The notes under the pieces: generated by a model
Told to the model about the DNA's origin: nothing
Databases searched by the model: none
What the model saw: only the letters and a program-made list of their open reading frames with translations
From: a virus
DNA length: 24,577 nucleotides
IMG/VR virus record: IMGVR_UViG_3300047550_005152
Coordinates: 1 to 24,577 of that record
Strand: one strand, 5' to 3'
Program-made: the position numbers and the translations under genes
Part shown: one piece after another, positions 13,466 through 21,780 of the stretch
Numbering within the stretch: the stretch's first letter is position 1
Layout: each line of letters begins with the position of its first letter

Positions 13466-14370
13466 GCCCTGTTTGTTAACGGGATAAACAGCTCGGGAAA
13501 ACGATCTGTATCTTGATGTTCTCTGCTCCAAGCTGCTTGCCAATCTGATAAAGAGTGGTCATGAATAGTATCGTAATACGCGTCATCCCCTGGTTCTAAT
13601 TCAATTTTGTAATTATTGATGTTTGAACTTGGAATGCGATTACCAATAATCCATGTTGAATTTGTTCCAACAGTGACACTGCCCCCTGGAGATTCAATAA
13701 TACAAAGTACCTCAGTGAATGCACCACCATTGGGAGGGATGACAACAGCCGTATCAACAGGGCTAACAATATCAGCAACGTCAATAGTGTATTCTTGCAG
13801 CGCACAACTGCCATCTAGATCTTCAAGTTGCCAAAAACCTTCTAAAGCAGTAGAGGCTGGTTCAATAACAACACCAACTTCGTAATCAAGAGGTTCGTTG
13901 CGTGTTGAAGAGATACAAATGAGATAACTGCCAACGCCTAATGGGAAATAACGGTCATCCCCGCGATCTAAACGCAGACGTTCAAAACTGTTGTACAGAT
14001 CAGACTGTACGCTCATTACCGTATTTAGGTAAGGAACGTACACTTCTCCTAGGTTATTGACACCATCAGTCAATGAATCAGCCTGAAAAACAGGAAGATC
14101 TGTTTGAGGGATGTTATTTAAATCATAAACACTGACGTTGATATACGTAGGACGCGGCGGTCCCTTGGTAACAATGATCCAAGCAGGTGCAGAAAGATTG
14201 ACCTGGAACCAGTTGTTGTAAGTACCGCCGCCAAAACCATTTGTTTTAACTTGGTACTTTGCACCAAGATTCCCACGCAAGTAACGCAGAGAAAGTTGAT
14301 CGAAAGTACCAAGTACTAATGGATTGTTTTTAGTGCGTTGTTCTTGACTAAGTACCGAATTCCTGGGCAT
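13462..14370 (-). CDS. Conserved cyanophage protein, probably virion-associated
   Basis: 302 residues from ATG 14370; upstream in-frame ATGs near 14403 lie deeper in the HNH gene. It begins MPRNSVLSQEQRTKNNPLVL and contains LRGNLGAKYQVKTNGFGGGT, NNWFQVNLSAPAWIIVTKGP and a long beta-rich remainder with no catalytic motif (VDTAVVIPPNGGAFTEVLCI), ending WSREHQDTDRFPELFIPLTNRA in part. I recognise the N-terminal half from cyanophage genomes, where it is uncharacterised and looks structural. The FQVNL...AWIIV pattern resembles a carbohydrate-binding, jelly-roll-like domain, as inference. Its stop is ATGA-coupled to the next gene, and its start overlaps the HNH gene by 23 bases. Confidence 0.72.
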   Translation of the reverse strand: MPRNSVLSQEQRTKNNPLVLGTFDQLSLRYLRGNLGAKYQVKTNGFGGGTYNNWFQVNLSAPAWIIVTKGPPRPTYINVSVYDLNNIPQTDLPVFQADSLTDGVNNLGEVYVPYLNTVMSVQSDLYNSFERLRLDRGDDRYFPLGVGSYLICISSTRNEPLDYEVGVVIEPASTALEGFWQLEDLDGSCALQEYTIDVADIVSPVDTAVVIPPNGGAFTEVLCIIESPGGSVTVGTNSTWIIGNRIPSSNINNYKIELEPGDDAYYDTIHDHSLSDWQAAWSREHQDTDRFPELFIPLTNRA

Positions 14371-15067
14371 ATGAACCGTGATACAGCTCCTGTGTATCAT
14401 CATAATCCGGGGTGTTTTTGTTTAATAACGGATGTTGTATTGTGTGCTGGTATTTAGTGTTCATAATGAGTTCAGGAGTTTCTTTTAAATTGTTGTCAGC
14501 AGAATGCATTAATTTTTCTGGATCAAAGGTGTGATCAAACGGATGAATTTCAAGTGGCGGAAAACTGCGGTTCCAACTGGAAACCATGTGCAAAGGATTA
14601 AGACAAGCTTTATTGCCACATGTGCGTGTAACTACCATCTTGCCAACGTCACCCCATGCGCATTGGTAGATAACTTTGTGAGCGCTAATATTTTCTGCCA
14701 GATTTTTACTGGTCGCGGAACGATAAGAAGGAAAACGAATTCGCGCGGTGGTTAACGCAGGCGTTTCCCAGCATTCATCAAAGTCACCAATAGGGATCTT
14801 GTTCCAGATGGATAGCAAACGGTGCCTGTACAAACCCTCAATGTAGTTAATATCAAAACCACAATTGTTATTAGAAATTTTACGAACGCATTCATAACAC
14901 CAATGGTAAGACTTGTCACGAATGGTATGCCCATGCGGACATATAAAACCACGGTAATATCCGTGACAATTTAATTGTGCTTCTGAAAGTGTTTCTATAT
15001 TTGCTACATACCGAAACGGTGTCAGTACAGAAGCAAACTCATTGATGCGCTTGGTGTAGTTAGCCAT
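14348..15067 (-). CDS. HNH endonuclease with Cys/His zinc motifs
   Basis: 239 residues from ATG 15067, two bases after the stop of the next HNH gene upstream. An N-terminal zinc-ribbon-like part has CPHGH (43-47) and WCYEC (56-60). The catalytic region is AHKVIYQCAWGD (129-140) followed by VTRTCGNKACLNPLHM (146-161). This is the arrangement of phage HNH proteins in which a His in 'HR/HK..Y' precedes a zinc-binding C....C.NP.H loop. These are usually free-standing homing endonucleases or DNA-processing nucleases. No intron or intein context is visible. Confidence 0.78.
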   Translation of the reverse strand: MANYTKRINEFASVLTPFRYVANIETLSEAQLNCHGYYRGFICPHGHTIRDKSYHWCYECVRKISNNNCGFDINYIEGLYRHRLLSIWNKIPIGDFDECWETPALTTARIRFPSYRSATSKNLAENISAHKVIYQCAWGDVGKMVVTRTCGNKACLNPLHMVSSWNRSFPPLEIHPFDHTFDPEKLMHSADNNLKETPELIMNTKYQHTIQHPLLNKNTPDYDDTQELYHGSYAQEFGT

Positions 15068-15069
15068 GA

Positions 15070-15498
15070 TCAAGAATGGATTGTGTTTCCAAGGAGGCGT
15101 TGATATTTGTTGAAAGACATGCCGTCTTCCAGGCTGTAGACCAACTCCCCTTCAGCGTTGCGTGTACGGCGTCGGTAAGAAGGCATACGACGCACCTTGC
15201 GCTGTTTGAGGGTGAGCTCTTCTCGGTTGTCGTAAGCGACGTTATCGGGGTCGTGAAGCACGTCTGCGTTCCCTGGATCCGTGCCAGTACGCAGGTAGTA
15301 GACGATGCGGTGGGCTTGGTAACGGTTGCCGCATAGAGAGACGTAGGCGTACTTCCCATGCAGCCTCCCGGCCATGTCACCGGCCTTGTGGCCACGTGCT
15401 TCCGTCTTCCACGCAAGACCGGTTGCGTACTGGTCAGAGAGCTCTAGCTGCTCCTGTACGTACCAAAGCGGAAGCATCTCGAGATAGGTGCGTGCCAT
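15070..15498 (-). CDS. HNH homing endonuclease (HNH_3 type)
   Basis: 142 residues from ATG 15498. The motif AHRIVYYLRTGTDPG followed by VLHDPDNVAYDNREELTL is the HNH_3 signature (first His in AHR, central H-D, final N-R). It is preceded by a KYAYVSLCGNRY strand pair and followed by a basic tail (VRRMPSYRRRTR). AGGAGGT sits only one base before this ATG, too close for use, so the in-frame TTG at 15522 cannot be excluded. The gene is plainly G/C-richer than the genes around it, suggesting recent arrival. It is downstream of the palindrome at 15565-15756. Confidence 0.82.
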   Translation of the reverse strand: MARTYLEMLPLWYVQEQLELSDQYATGLAWKTEARGHKAGDMAGRLHGKYAYVSLCGNRYQAHRIVYYLRTGTDPGNADVLHDPDNVAYDNREELTLKQRKVRRMPSYRRRTRNAEGELVYSLEDGMSFNKYQRLLGNTIHS

Positions 15499-15809
15499 GA
15501 CCTCCTGGTGGGTGGGGACCAAGGCACTGTACCACTGTTGGGAAGTGTATGCAAGAGATTCTGCGAATACCGTCTTGTGGGAGGGTGAATACCGCCTTAT
15601 TATCTTAGATATAGGGTTTCATACCTTGTTCAAAAATGTCTCACTTCTGTACAGGTCCCAGGGGTCCGTACATAACTGCTACAAAGATTTAACAACGTAT
15701 GAAACCCTATAGAGGGTTAGATAAGACGGTATTTACCCTTTAATAAGCCGGTATCCATTGTTTTACCCGTCTCCTTGCGTTTTCCACAATACATACGTAC
15801 CAACAAACC
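15499..15809. other. 311-bp noncoding region with large palindrome
   Basis: This is the only gene-free stretch above 300 bases. Short open frames here lack any protein-like pattern. Its content is the dyad at 15565-15756 described separately. The remainder, 15757-15809, shows nothing I can name. Confidence 0.7.
15565..15756. repeat. Interrupted palindrome with four phased half-sites
   Basis: Arms are in exact register about a centre between 15660 and 15661. The innermost long match is TATAGGGTTTCATAC at 15610-15624 against its complement at 15697-15711, extending to 21 bp with one mismatch (15610-15630 / 15691-15711). Outside it, ATACCGNCTT occurs at 15567-15576 and 15589-15598, and inverted at 15723-15732 and 15745-15754; each pair is spaced 22 bp. 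The inner ~60 bp are mostly unpaired, apart from a TGTAC/GTACA element near the centre. It could be a protein-binding array, a structured RNA, or a mobile-element remnant. Confidence 0.75.
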
Positions 15810-17072
15810 TCACTTACCAAGCTTCCTAGTCCGTGTGCGTTCCTTTCGCTCCTTCTTTTTTTCTTTAGGTTCTGCCACAGTTTCAGGCTCTTGGGACAAC
15901 ACCTCCTCAAATACTCCACCAAACTGAGACGCAACTGTGTCCCATGAGAATTGAGGATCAGTTACGCGTTTGTAACAAGCCTCTGCAACTTCTTTTTCAA
16001 TGTCAGGATTTTCATATAAATAGTCAAGTAATTCCGTGAGATGTTCTGCAGAAGGACATGGCATTTCTCTCGAATAATTGGTATCCACATCAACGTGGTC
16101 ACAACGAATTAATTGACCGTAGCCTTCAAAAATTTCTCGGCACGATGTATGGTCAGGAACAATTTGAGCAACACGACATGCGGCGTGTTCAAAGTTGACA
16201 AGACCCCAGCCTTCGCCTTTGCAGGTATTAACACCCACATCACATGCGTTATAGATGTCATTTAGCATTTCTACCGACACATTTGGTGGATTAGCTTGGT
16301 TTGACGTCATGATGATCCTTCCGTTTGGATCAATACCAACACGTGTCATCTCACGTGCAAACACCTCCATGATGTCCCAGCCCTGGTCCTTAAGACCCAT
16401 GTGCAGGTACAACATGGCTTCAGGTCTATCAACGGCAAAATCAGCAAATGCTTTGATTGTGATGTCAATCCGTTTACGGAATTGATTGCGGTTACCATTG
16501 AAAACAATGTAGCTATCTTGTTTAAGGCCCAAGCGTTGCCGTGCTTCTGCTTTATCGACAGGATAGAACTGCCCTGGTGTTACCCCATGCGGAATAACAG
16601 TCACAGGCTTCGTAATACCACCACGCATAAATTCATATGCACCAAATTCTGTGTATGAAATAACTGCATCCCATTCATTGGCTGTATCTGCTAGGCAACC
16701 GGTCCATGCATACGAATCCATGGGTGCGTAGCCAACAAATTTAAATCTGCCGGCCTTGTGCAAATCTCTAATTTGGTTGTATTGCTCATTAATAATCCAC
16801 ATATCATTGATAGTGAACACAATGTCAGGTTGTTCACGTTCAACGATTTCACGAATGCGTTGCTCGCCAAAGGGCGCAGTTTGATGCCGATTGGAGGACG
16901 GATACATTTTGTACTCCTGCTGCAGAGGAGTTGGATCACCCCACCAGTTGTTACCTAAAACAACAATTTCAAAGTCGTCTTTTAGACGAGAGATAACATT
17001 CTCGGTTACACGGGCAAACCCAGTCATGGCAACAATGTCACCACACCACAAAAGTTTTGCTTTCTTAGACAT
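15810..17072 (-). CDS. GT4-family glycosyltransferase
   Basis: 420 residues from ATG 17072; a longer frame to 17105 would run through the dyad. It begins MSKKAKLLWCGDIVAMTGFA, the N-terminal Rossmann fold with a Gly-rich loop. FNGNRNQFRKRID (191-203) is the donor-phosphate-binding region. GEGWGLVNFE (286-295) gives the E-x7-E motif (Glu287/Glu295) of retaining group 1 transferases. The last ~30 residues are a Lys/Glu/Arg-rich tail (KEKKKERKERTRTRKLGK). It would move a sugar from a nucleotide donor to an unknown acceptor, such as modified phage DNA, a virion protein or host lipopolysaccharide. It follows speD after 20 bases. Confidence 0.88.
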   Translation of the reverse strand: MSKKAKLLWCGDIVAMTGFARVTENVISRLKDDFEIVVLGNNWWGDPTPLQQEYKMYPSSNRHQTAPFGEQRIREIVEREQPDIVFTINDMWIINEQYNQIRDLHKAGRFKFVGYAPMDSYAWTGCLADTANEWDAVISYTEFGAYEFMRGGITKPVTVIPHGVTPGQFYPVDKAEARQRLGLKQDSYIVFNGNRNQFRKRIDITIKAFADFAVDRPEAMLYLHMGLKDQGWDIMEVFAREMTRVGIDPNGRIIMTSNQANPPNVSVEMLNDIYNACDVGVNTCKGEGWGLVNFEHAACRVAQIVPDHTSCREIFEGYGQLIRCDHVDVDTNYSREMPCPSAEHLTELLDYLYENPDIEKEVAEACYKRVTDPQFSWDTVASQFGGVFEEVLSQEPETVAEPKEKKKERKERTRTRKLGK

Positions 17073-17095
17073 TAGATCGGAATAACTCCGATCTA
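17073..17095 (-). promoter_or_regulatory. Perfect 9-bp dyad between speD stop and GT start
   Basis: TAGATCGGA (17073-17081), a 5-base spacer, then TCCGATCTA (17087-17095) form a perfect inverted repeat. It includes the speD stop codon and ends exactly where the glycosyltransferase ATG begins (17072). There is no T-run, so it is probably an RNA hairpin affecting translation or processing between the two genes, or an operator. Confidence 0.6.
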
Positions 17096-17455
17096 CTCTA
17101 CACAATTAACGGGTTCAATTGATCGTACAAGTTCTTTTTCATCTGCTGTTTCTGCGCCTAACTTCTTTTTTAAAAACTCTGCAGCCTTATGGGTAAGCGT
17201 CGTATCTCCACAGGTATAGAGATCAACTGCCGCATACCCTACTTCAGGCCACGTATGAATAGATGCATGCGATTCCGATAGGAGTGCTAACAGGGTCACG
17301 CCTTGCGGTTCAAATTTCTCGCCAAAGATACGTAAGATATTTGCTTTTGCTAAAACAAGAGAAGCTTCCAGCAAATGCTGGAGCTCCTCATAGTTATTTA
17401 AAAGGTTCTGATCGCAACCATACAGGTCAAGGATCAGGTGACGCCCGTTACTCAA
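17093..17455 (-). CDS. speD: S-adenosylmethionine decarboxylase (prokaryotic class 1B)
   Basis: 120 residues, the usual length for the short bacterial proenzyme. It starts at TTG (17455), and the family's opening GRHLILDLYGC follows at once. The cleavage site is LLSESHASIHTWPE: the chain would cut between Glu61 and Ser62, Ser62 becoming the pyruvoyl cofactor. His67 and Cys82 (YTCGD) match the processing His and the catalytic Cys, one position off the Thermotoga numbering (63/68/83). The product, decarboxylated SAM, is the aminopropyl donor for spermidine. speD is a known cyanophage accessory gene. Start and upstream stop overlap as TTGA, so its translation is coupled to the primase-helicase. 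Confidence 0.93.
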   Translation of the reverse strand: MSNGRHLILDLYGCDQNLLNNYEELQHLLEASLVLAKANILRIFGEKFEPQGVTLLALLSESHASIHTWPEVGYAAVDLYTCGDTTLTHKAAEFLKKKLGAETADEKELVRSIEPVNCVE

Positions 17456-20085
17456 TGGTCTGGTGCGATGTGTTCTTCCATTATCGCAGGATTAACACCA
17501 TACTCCATTGCATAACGTGTAGGGTCAGAGGCTACTTCCAGAATGGAAGGATAACCCTTGTAGCGTTCCGGTGCACCTTCACGAACGAGGATGTTATGGA
17601 CCATCAAACCATTGGTGTTTTTGGTTGTGTACACATTGAGTTTTAATTGGTTTTTACAGATGTCCATAAGGAGCACTTCAAATCGAGCACGCCCAGAAAC
17701 ACCAACGTTGGCACCACGGCAATGTTCTGCATAGGACGGATACAGCAGTGTGGACCAATCGACATAGTAATTGTTACCACCAGCGGAAGGCTTACAGGTA
17801 CCAATGACAGACCGTTCTCCCGGAGCAAAAATAACGTGTTTGTCCAACCAATCCAAAAGCGGATTAGAACGAATGGCTTGATCCTTCTCGTACACCTGGA
17901 AGAAATCAACGTGCTTTGATGTTTCCATCAAGTAATCACGCATTTCAGATTCAGACATATCCAGTATCCAGTTCACAAGCCCTGGCAGTAAGGGCGCAAA
18001 ATCTCCTTGCGGAATGCCTTTGTTATCAAATCCCATCAACGTACGTTGTTCTGCTTGACCACCAGTGAAGGGACGATCAAACGGAATAGTGAGGCGACGA
18101 CGGGCAAGACCCGAGGTGTAATCGGTAGATTGAATTGCTTCGTTAGCCGTAATGATGACAACACCTTGGAACTGGAAGGGTTCAAGTTGTTCTGCTTGAT
18201 ATTTAAACTCAGAACGAATCCAGTCACCACCAGTGATTGCTTTTAGTTTTGAAACACTGCCGCCATAACGGTCAGAATCCTGGAACAAGATAATTTTCTT
18301 ACCCATGAAACTGGCAGTTTCAAATCGGTTCTTCTCAATTTGTTCTAGTTCCGTTGAGCAAACGTTCCGTTTGCCAACAAGAGCAACACAAAGGTTGGCG
18401 TAGGTTGATTTGCCAGATTTACCAGGGCCTACCAACTCAAGAAACTTTTGCAGTTCGTAACGGCCAAGGAGAGTTGCTCGCAGCCAAGCACGCAGAACTT
18501 GTGTGCGCTGCTCTGAACCATGTTGTGTGTAACGCAGCCAATCAATGATCGGTTGACACGTTGCCTGAGGATTGTATGCGTAAGGCATTTGCTGTGTCAT
18601 ATGGAGATTGCGATCAAACGGCCGCAATTCCCGTGTGGTCACATCAAGCACACCGTTGGTGAAAAGCAAAACGTCTGTTGCTTCGTGCCATTTATCACAA
18701 GGCACCATTGCTTGGAGTTGCTTGAACATGTCATCAAGCATTTGGAAGCTAAATCCTTCACGCAACCAGCCACTTAACAGAAGGGCTTGAAGCTTGGAGC
18801 GGATATCGCCAAGCATTTCAATCTTGCTCACTTTATTCCACAACCCCTGGCTAGGGTCGTACATAAAGAATTGATTGTGAGGCAAGCTAAATAGCAGGTT
18901 GTTACCGTAAGTAGCTAACAGTTTGTCGGCAATTTCATTCTTAGGTTGCCGCATTTCTTTTTCTTTTTTCTTGCTCCGCTTTTGCGATTGAGGTTCATCA
19001 ATGTAGTCTTCGGTTTGCATTGAAATAGTGTCGTTTGGTGTAGCTGTTTTTAGTAGATGATCCATTTCATCTTCCACATGTCTTTCGATTTCGGGAAGAA
19101 TGGTTGCTACGTGGTTGATAGTAGCATCGTCTGGAGGGAACACCTTGTCTTCCTGCGGACGCTTCCATCCGTTTTGTTCAGCCAGATGGTAAAGTGTCCC
19201 AATACCACGGCCACCACCTTTTGTAAAGGATAGCCAACGCTTATGGCATTCACCTTCTTTATATTTATCGCTTTGTTTGGACCATTCATCCCATTGATCG
19301 AGCAGGGATTCATCAAGTTCATGAAGCGATTGTCCGATAGCAATCCAAATGTCGTAGTCATCAACCGCCTCAAGGGGAAGCGCCCACATTGCGGAGGTAG
19401 CCAATTGCATATCCCGTTCCAGCCCAATGCGACTGGTGATTGCAAAAGAGTTACCAATGACTCGTGATACTTCTTCTGCAGGACGTCCTTGTTTTGCGTT
19501 GCGGGTAATGATGGCATTTAACACCCAGCCTGGCAGCTCAGGAATTTTGTCTGCCCATTCAAATCCCAATCCTTCTGCAGTGAAATAACCTTGCGTATCT
19601 GGATGCGAACCCATTAACACACCTTGGTGCCGTTTCCACAGGATTTCTAGTTTTTCCATGGACCCCTGCGAGGTCCATGTATATTTATTACGTACAAAAT
19701 GTTTTTGTTTTTCTTTACTTACTTTGTATAGACGCCGTTCACGCCCTGCTTTACCACTGAGGATGGTAAGGGTGGGAGGCAACGCATCGAGTAAGCAGAG
19801 GTTTGAGATTTGTTCGATGAGCTCATAGACGGATGGTCCGTCAACATCAACCCAAACGAAACCATAAGGATTGTTGTAGGCAGGACCACCAAGTAATCCG
19901 ATGGCTTTGCATTCCCCTTTAATAATTTCATTTTCAATTGCTTCAGTCGTAAACGGTTTATTTTGCCAACCCAATACATATGGATCTTTGTTGGGACCAA
20001 GAGGAGTTAAGGGCCAATCAATAGGAATGAGGTCGAGTCGGATTTCACCAGGTTTTACTGCTTGTTGGTTCATGTGCATCGTCAC
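17452..20085 (-). CDS. PrimPol-SF3 primase-helicase
   Basis: 877 residues from GTG 20085 (GTGA overlap with the upstream stop); ATGs at 20079 and 20073 are alternatives. Residues ~10-190 are an archaeo-eukaryotic-type PrimPol domain with VWVDVDG (Asp80/Asp82) and MGSHPDT (His161). Residues ~220-310 resemble PriCT_2 (DIWIAIGQSLHEL ... LYHLAEQNGW). A charged linker with KRSKKKEKE precedes the D5_N-like part (~385-540). The SF3 helicase follows: Walker A GPGKSGKST (553-561), Walker B IILFQDSD (598-605), motif C VVIITANE (642-649) and ARRRLTIPF (661-669). It should unwind the origin or fork and make primers. The C-terminal ~150 residues are an accessory domain. Confidence 0.9.
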   Translation of the reverse strand: MTMHMNQQAVKPGEIRLDLIPIDWPLTPLGPNKDPYVLGWQNKPFTTEAIENEIIKGECKAIGLLGGPAYNNPYGFVWVDVDGPSVYELIEQISNLCLLDALPPTLTILSGKAGRERRLYKVSKEKQKHFVRNKYTWTSQGSMEKLEILWKRHQGVLMGSHPDTQGYFTAEGLGFEWADKIPELPGWVLNAIITRNAKQGRPAEEVSRVIGNSFAITSRIGLERDMQLATSAMWALPLEAVDDYDIWIAIGQSLHELDESLLDQWDEWSKQSDKYKEGECHKRWLSFTKGGGRGIGTLYHLAEQNGWKRPQEDKVFPPDDATINHVATILPEIERHVEDEMDHLLKTATPNDTISMQTEDYIDEPQSQKRSKKKEKEMRQPKNEIADKLLATYGNNLLFSLPHNQFFMYDPSQGLWNKVSKIEMLGDIRSKLQALLLSGWLREGFSFQMLDDMFKQLQAMVPCDKWHEATDVLLFTNGVLDVTTRELRPFDRNLHMTQQMPYAYNPQATCQPIIDWLRYTQHGSEQRTQVLRAWLRATLLGRYELQKFLELVGPGKSGKSTYANLCVALVGKRNVCSTELEQIEKNRFETASFMGKKIILFQDSDRYGGSVSKLKAITGGDWIRSEFKYQAEQLEPFQFQGVVIITANEAIQSTDYTSGLARRRLTIPFDRPFTGGQAEQRTLMGFDNKGIPQGDFAPLLPGLVNWILDMSESEMRDYLMETSKHVDFFQVYEKDQAIRSNPLLDWLDKHVIFAPGERSVIGTCKPSAGGNNYYVDWSTLLYPSYAEHCRGANVGVSGRARFEVLLMDICKNQLKLNVYTTKNTNGLMVHNILVREGAPERYKGYPSILEVASDPTRYAMEYGVNPAIMEEHIAPDH

Positions 20086-20530: not shown

Positions 20531-21385
20531 TCAAATCAAATCTGGATCATATACATTGCAATTTTCAATTTGTTTGTAGTACTCATCAACAATTTTGTAC
20601 CAATCTTCTCTCAACATATTAAGAAAATTTCTTGAGATTTTAAACACTTGCGTACGTACTGGAGTTGACACTAAGATTGCAGCTTGTTGTACCGTCATGC
20701 CAAGCGTTTGTTCGATAGCAATGTCGTATGCAGCTAATTGCTTGCAAGTCTTTTTAAACTTAAGATGACCACTAAGCAGATCTCTCCACTCTTGGGACCC
20801 CTTTTCCAAATCTTTTGGCCACTTACGACTATAGGGTTTGACACTGGTTTTTAGATCGGCAAGTGTCAGCTTGTTATTGGCGACAGCAATAATATCAGGA
20901 GCACCAGCCCAAGCACGACCTTCTGAGTCACAACCCCAGACGCGAGCAACGTCATCAGCACCAATAGTGAAGTCAAACTTATCCAGAACAGGGGACTCGG
21001 CCCAAAGGACTTCCTCAAATTGATCCAGGATTGATGGCATACCCGACCAAAAGTCCGCATATTCTTCTGGAATATCAGGAGTTTTATTCCCTTTGAGGTA
21101 CTGTTCCATGCCATAGTGGATGGCAGTTCCTCGTTCGGCAGCAGCTTCTTTGACACCTGGATTTGCTTTCGACCACATTTCAAGCTTCCGTTTGTTTGCT
21201 TCGGAAACCGTCTCACTAATGATAGTGGTTACGGATGGCGCAGGTCCAGTGGGTAACGGCGTTGTATAGTGACGTCTACCGTTAAGCGAGATTCTGGCTG
21301 CGGTCCTATTCAACGACCGCATAACTTCTGGTTGCTCTTCCTTGGCTATAATCCAAGGATCTGACGTATTCAGTCTAGCAACCAT
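20531..21385 (-). CDS. PD-(D/E)XK nuclease (RecB/Cas4-like exonuclease)
   Basis: 284 residues. ERGTAIHYGMEQYL (84-97) is the N-terminal RGT..H motif seen in Cas4/RecB-like phage exonucleases. GAPDIIAV (161-168) and LADLKTS (175-181) provide the PD and D-x-K catalytic residues (Asp164, Asp177, Lys179). KQLAAYDIAIE (215-225) contains the QxxxY motif, typical of RecB/AddB-like nucleases. It would degrade or process DNA ends with divalent metal during replication or recombination. It is the first gene of the long leftward replication block, with TAGACT 23 bases upstream. No cas genes are nearby, so a CRISPR role is not suggested. Confidence 0.85.
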   Translation of the reverse strand: MVARLNTSDPWIIAKEEQPEVMRSLNRTAARISLNGRRHYTTPLPTGPAPSVTTIISETVSEANKRKLEMWSKANPGVKEAAAERGTAIHYGMEQYLKGNKTPDIPEEYADFWSGMPSILDQFEEVLWAESPVLDKFDFTIGADDVARVWGCDSEGRAWAGAPDIIAVANNKLTLADLKTSVKPYSRKWPKDLEKGSQEWRDLLSGHLKFKKTCKQLAAYDIAIEQTLGMTVQQAAILVSTPVRTQVFKISRNFLNMLREDWYKIVDEYYKQIENCNVYDPDLI

Positions 21386-21418: not shown

Positions 21419-21541
21419 ATGAAAGAGCCTAATGTGATGGACGGATTCAACTACGCAATCGCTTCGATCCTTGGTGCGATGCTTGTCGTCATTAGCATGG
21501 ATGCCTACTTATTCTTCATGGAAGTCGCATCACGTCAATGA
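21419..21541 (+). CDS. 40-residue membrane microprotein coupled to hli
   Basis: ATG 21419 to TGA 21539-21541. It reads MKEPNVMDGFNYAIASILGA, then a hydrophobic span MLVVISMDAYLFFMEVASRQ. One membrane helix is predicted from about residue 12 to 35, with a short N-terminal part. Its stop overlaps the hli ATG as ATGA. The size and single span recall small photosynthetic-complex subunits, but it matches none I know (not PetN, PetM, PsbT or PsaJ). A membrane partner of the Hli protein is a reasonable guess only. Confidence 0.6.
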   Translation: MKEPNVMDGFNYAIASILGAMLVVISMDAYLFFMEVASRQ

Positions 21542-21780
21542 ACAAATTCCTACTAGGCATCCAAGGGTACGTGTCTTGCTTTGGTTGGATTTTTGTTGCG
21601 ATTTGGCAGTGGATCCTGGAAGCAGCACCTGATCTTAAAATTTGGAAAAGGCACACTGACTTAGGTGATCACTTTTGGTATGCTGAACGTGTTAACGGAC
21701 GCCTTGCGATGTTAGCAATTGCATACATTCTCATCAGATGTTTAACCCATGGCATCAAACTTAACTCGCTTTTATTTTGA
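21538..21780 (+). CDS. hli: High-light-inducible protein (Hli) with N-terminal extension
   Basis: 80 residues. The chlorophyll-binding helix motif is YAERVNGRLAML (48-59), fitting ExxNGRxAM with Glu50, Asn53 and Arg55 as the pigment-contact residues, and continuing IAYILIRCLTHG. Hli proteins bind chlorophyll and carotenoid in thylakoids and protect photosystem assembly; they are common in cyanophages. Residues 4-29 form a second strongly hydrophobic segment (LLGIQGYVSCFGWIFVAIWQ) that typical one-helix Hli proteins lack, followed by a charged linker. Coupled to the upstream microprotein by ATGA; the next gene overlaps its end by 32 bases. Confidence 0.82.
   Translation: MNKFLLGIQGYVSCFGWIFVAIWQWILEAAPDLKIWKRHTDLGDHFWYAERVNGRLAMLAIAYILIRCLTHGIKLNSLLF

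Follow-up and report, generated by a model that had tools for sequence, protein, structure and literature searches.

The window, i.e. the whole stretch of 24,577 bases that we analyzed, is an IMG/VR virus record corresponding to a cyanophage contig of the S-EIV1 lineage. Among named phages, Synechococcus phage S-EIV1 is its closest relative judged by the glycosyltransferase (GT; 65% identity), and the genes around the site studied here are ordered alike in both. Among the relatives fetched, this order is conserved as exonuclease, primase-helicase, speD, glycosyltransferase, palindrome, HNH 1, HNH 2, and a 313-aa protein (Table 1), with speD or HNH 1 not found in some of the blocks. In some members, the two HNH genes are fused and encode a protein of ~350 aa (L065:2908-3981, L160:10711-11772). 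The HNH neighbors are long-standing genes of the lineage and not sporadic insertions. By eye, the reading frame at 21538-21780 of the window resembles high-light-inducible proteins, which are encoded by photosynthesis genes of cyanobacteria.

Table 1. Features of the palindrome and of the surrounding gene block (window coordinates).
Feature	Position	Strand	Remarks
Interrupted palindrome (proposed replication origin)	15567..15754	.	centre 15660/15661
Outer half-site ATACCGTCTT	15567..15576	+	
Second half-site ATACCGCCTT	15589..15598	+	22 bp on from outer half-site
Inner arm TATAGGGTTTCATACCTTGTTCAA	15610..15633	+	
Variable centre	15634..15687	.	
Inner arm, inverted	15688..15711	-	
Inverted half-site AAGACGGTAT	15723..15732	-	
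Inverted outer half-site AAGCCGGTAT	15745..15754	-	
HNH gene 2 (CxxC + NPLH motif)	14348..15073	-	throughout lineage
HNH-like gene 1	15070..15522	-	starts 45 bp past palindrome; not found in some lineages
Glycosyltransferase (GT, phrog_2170)	15810..17105	-	ends 55 bp from palindrome
speD (S-adenosylmethionine decarboxylase)	17093..17455	-	
Primase-helicase (proposed initiator)	17452..20085	-	Prim-Pol, PriCT_2, D5_N, DUF5906/SF3, putative C-terminal winged-helix-like region
Exonuclease (phrog_298)	20531..21385	-	first gene of the block

A first-pass annotation made from the sequence alone had described here an interrupted palindrome centred between 15660 and 15661, with a near-perfect 21-bp inner arm and four half-sites (15567, 15589; inverted at 15723, 15745), and we confirmed each of these elements. 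In the 21-bp arms (15610-15630 and 15691-15711), all but one position match, i.e. 20 of 21, and the arms can be extended to 15633 and 15688 at 92% match; within them, TATAGGGTTTCATAC is invariant across both palindrome copies of the window family (see below). When the window was compared to its own reverse complement, 15567-15754 matched at 71% (E 7e-17). The best gap-free symmetric score within the 400 bp around the palindrome was 31, against a mean of 8.7 (sd 1.2, maximum 15) in 200 dinucleotide shuffles. The half-site motif, allowing at most one mismatch, occurs four times in the palindrome and four times in the rest of the 24.6 kb. A nucleotide search of INPHARED with the palindrome returned chance matches only. 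The two arms are not equivalent in detail: one of them carries CCCTCTATAGGG in the glycosyltransferase sense (window 15688-15725, minus strand; 7380-7410 in L017), a sequence that faintly resembles the end of a T7-type promoter. This arm can fold into a small hairpin while the other cannot, and the asymmetry is conserved within the palindrome. A cyanobacterial DnaA-box-like sequence, TTTTCCACA (15780-15788), lies beside the palindrome; it is not kept in relatives and was rejected as a host DnaA box.

Ten close relatives keep all four half-sites at spacings of 0/22/156/178. As the first-pass annotation had proposed to check, their half-sites and inner arms are conserved, the arms being invariant at key positions, and the inner ~55 bp are variable. 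In relatives that are further away (glycosyltransferase 60-79% identical), the corresponding gap is again occupied by a palindrome, but its sequence differs. In total, 65 loci belonging to 35 lineages (non-redundant groups) pass the palindrome threshold, several low-scoring loci show the same pattern by eye once a longer gap is searched, and the palindrome was also found in more distant primase relatives. In each of the 11 genomes examined as a whole (S-EIV1 and 10 near-complete contigs), it outscores every other interrupted palindrome and lies 150-260 bp past the glycosyltransferase stop. Its score is 32-49 against 13-17 for the runner-up in most of them, with thinner margins in G011 (18 vs 16) and S-EIV1 (17 vs 14). 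No palindrome was seen at one locus, L171, and none of this kind around the glycosyltransferase of S-CBS4 (46% identical, in a different gene order); the palindromes found beside distant primases of other phages are not as large. The S-EIV1 record does not annotate the element. Altogether, the element is real, acts at the level of DNA, and is conserved in the widespread S-EIV1 lineage, where nearly all members examined have it in the same location next to the replication genes. The 22-bp phasing, previously read as placing the half-sites on one face of the DNA, is found in the window's own family, but no lag-22 peak appears over the 35 lineages, so it is not supported as a general feature. Many lineages (e.g. 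L057, L062, L071) share a recurring dyad close to GTCTCATGAGAC, positioned at the centre of the palindrome or close to it.

Four contigs of the window family carry the palindrome twice, the second copy being 75% alike and located 33.7-34.5 kb upstream (distances from contig ranges). A fifth contig fits this distance if the genome is circular and ~84 kb long. The other near-complete genomes contain one copy only.

The first-pass annotation had stated that loss of the symmetry at the neutral rate would speak against a functional site; in distant relatives, the sequence turns over and the symmetry stays. We analyzed double changes in 14 disjoint lineage pairs covering 880 symmetric pairs. Both sides had changed in 46 of them, and 36 of these 46 were still complementary (Watson-Crick), while independence predicts 14.8 double changes with about 5 complementary. 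In controls with the partner shifted by 1-6 bases, 7-18 pairs were complementary, and the window family contributed little to the double changes (0/1). Mirror homogenisation via template switching could add to the kept symmetry; it would leave the fixed position unexplained.

Such compensatory-type changes could also be expected from a structured RNA, namely a large hairpin in a transcript, and the predicted folds are indeed strong (z -8 to -9). However, they are so on either strand, as for any inverted repeat. An RNA hairpin tolerates G·U and avoids A·C on its strand. Over the 35 groups, the arm mismatches comprise 149 G·T and 149 A·C, so wobble pairs are not favored on the transcribed strand, indicating that the palindrome works as double-stranded DNA. 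Rfam gave no match either. The RNA fold, one of the alternatives raised by the first-pass annotation, is thus very unlikely.

The primase-helicase gene lies 1.7 kb from the palindrome in the same block. Its product contains the Pfam domains Prim-Pol, PriCT_2, D5_N, and DUF5906 (SF3-like). The structure model (mean pLDDT 78.7, pTM 0.49) matches the SaPI5 primase-helicase 7OLA (TM 0.67 by target) and also full-length AsfvPrimPol. In the model, the C-terminus shows a winged-helix-like order of elements and may form a DNA-binding domain. The protein is therefore predicted to have the make-up of a PICI/SaPI-type initiator, i.e. a primase and/or SF3-type helicase with a C-terminal DNA-binding domain. 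PICI origins are located 3' of the initiator rep gene, and two iteron sets flank a melting region (PMC6092414), while in SaPIs the C-terminus of the Rep helicase contacts the origin, to which Rep apparently binds as two hexamers (PMC7581432). Likewise, in the S-EIV1 lineage two repeat sets stand on either side of a centre, as mirrored arms in 35 lineages, downstream of the gene for an initiator candidate of related fold. In contrast to PICIs and SaPIs, the cyanophage site belongs to a full-size phage, and its sets mirror each other in a near-continuous palindrome. It also does not follow the primase-helicase gene immediately: two genes intervene in the window and speD and/or the glycosyltransferase across relatives, with ~1.4-3.4 kb from the primase to the glycosyltransferase stop. 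Finally, a marked AT-rich melting region is not clearly evident between the sets (centre 60% AT vs 54% for the locus, with AT peaks ~65 bp on either side). The site, which is probably the replication origin, thus resembles the PICI type without sharing all its features.

The SCCmec Cch2 origin, from a staphylococcal island, carries AAGTG iterons as direct repeats (PMC7581432). This iteron of a related helicase is enriched 7.2-fold in the palindromes over all lineages relative to flanking, mostly coding, DNA, a five-letter match that makes for a weak likeness; the window's own palindrome is AAGTG-poor, and the cyanophage arms are mirrored in contrast to the direct repeats of SCCmec. In the freshwater phage record LR797314, iterons are found directly 3' of the gene for a cousin primase. 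Beyond what the general tree explains, similar palindromes did not go with similar C-terminal domains of the primase (partial r -0.07); for the PriCT region the partial r was 0.30 (p 0.0025 before any correction for the eight tests made).

Taking together the PICI/SaPI papers, the domains and structure model, the AAGTG enrichment, and the LR797314 iterons, an origin is the best explanation of the site. To the reading that the palindrome is the replication origin of the phage and the adjacent Prim-Pol/SF3 primase-helicase its initiator, we give an even chance; both the binding of this protein to the palindrome and the start of replication there are what we infer from these comparisons. The primase-helicase would bind the mirrored sites via its putative C-terminal DNA-binding domain, and two hexamers would assemble face to face, one per arm. 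The DNA would then be opened in or beside the arms, and both forks would be primed by the primase-helicase itself. Thus, of the earlier proposal of a protein-binding site, the DNA-level site with paired putative half-sites stands, with an origin as its likeliest role, while the general 22-bp phasing does not. The GC-skew check suggested at the same time did not help the origin reading once codon positions were controlled. The flip in raw skew seen at the palindrome amounts only to a local block in the genome-wide profile, and there is no switch at fourfold sites, so this candidate signal was dropped.

The proposed arrangement has counterparts in other replicons. The alpha protein of phage P4 is a primase-helicase initiator that works with two cis regions, ori and crr, made of short iterons. 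The proposed initiator is of the same kind, and the two site copies of the window family recall the two cis regions; in contrast, P4 uses short iterons, and among the cyanophages only the window family has the second copy. SV40 T-antigen and papillomavirus E1 are SF3 helicases that assemble as a double hexamer on inverted half-sites. The same assembly is proposed here, although the cyanophage element is much larger; the analogy to the SV40 T-antigen and papillomavirus E1 origins was made in PMC7581432.

Other roles for a symmetric DNA site have to be weighed against an origin. HNH proteins are packaging partners in some phages, and HNH gene 2, which is universal, lies directly past the palindrome and is fused to gene 1 in some lineages. 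The palindrome could therefore be a processing site for these nucleases (nicking, concatemer resolution, or packaging initiation). We regard this as unlikely: the S-EIV1 terminase is far off, at 54-57 kb with the palindrome at 7.9 kb, no gene 1 was found in several of the lineages with the palindrome, and the scatter of contig ends relative to the palindrome shows that the genome has no fixed end there. The genes on both sides run in the same direction, with HNH gene 1 downstream of the palindrome; this location and the resemblance of the dyads to dimer sites would suit an operator through which a phage regulator controls the HNH genes or a late switch. However, ~190 bp with mirrored arms far exceeds the usual operator size, a one-way promoter needs no mirror symmetry, and gene 1 is not always present, making such a regulatory site improbable as well.

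A partition, recombination, or other site for some other phage protein would agree with symmetry at the DNA level and with the window family having another copy at a distance of 34 kb, but a non-exhaustive look at the genes beside the palindrome revealed none for ParA/ParB or a recombinase, and we hold this to be quite improbable. The two copies, 75% alike, also recall a miniature inverted-repeat mobile element, which the first-pass annotation had named as an alternative. A mobile element would be expected at variable positions and in unrelated genomes. Instead, the position is the same in 35 lineages, and the second copy lies at a constant distance in four contigs. The arm pair of the window family has no match in the cellular genome collection, and its viral matches fall mainly in window-family contigs (two contigs unassigned). 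No obvious target duplication, empty sites, or scattered copies were seen. The conserved position and the lack of cellular copies of the arm pair thus make a mobile element highly unlikely.

If the palindrome is an origin, the site can be found by its symmetry and not by its sequence, and for dozens of uncultured phages there would be an origin that can be tested. The rewritten sites would also form a natural series for studying the joint change of an SF3 initiator and its DNA. No description of origins of S-EIV1-type cyanophages was found in the literature searched or in the S-EIV1 record. We tentatively suggest, as a possibility with somewhat less than an even chance, a lineage-specific class of palindromic origins in which initiator specificity drifts fast and the mirrored half-sites are rewritten jointly, while architecture and position stay fixed. 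The duplication 34 kb off in the window family might then represent two origins, or an origin and a replication enhancer. The left flank of the second copy (L137:2900-3200) carries more GGTATGTACC-type repeats in a small-gene region, and in G015 an extra reading frame beside this copy looks by eye like a GIY-YIG nuclease.
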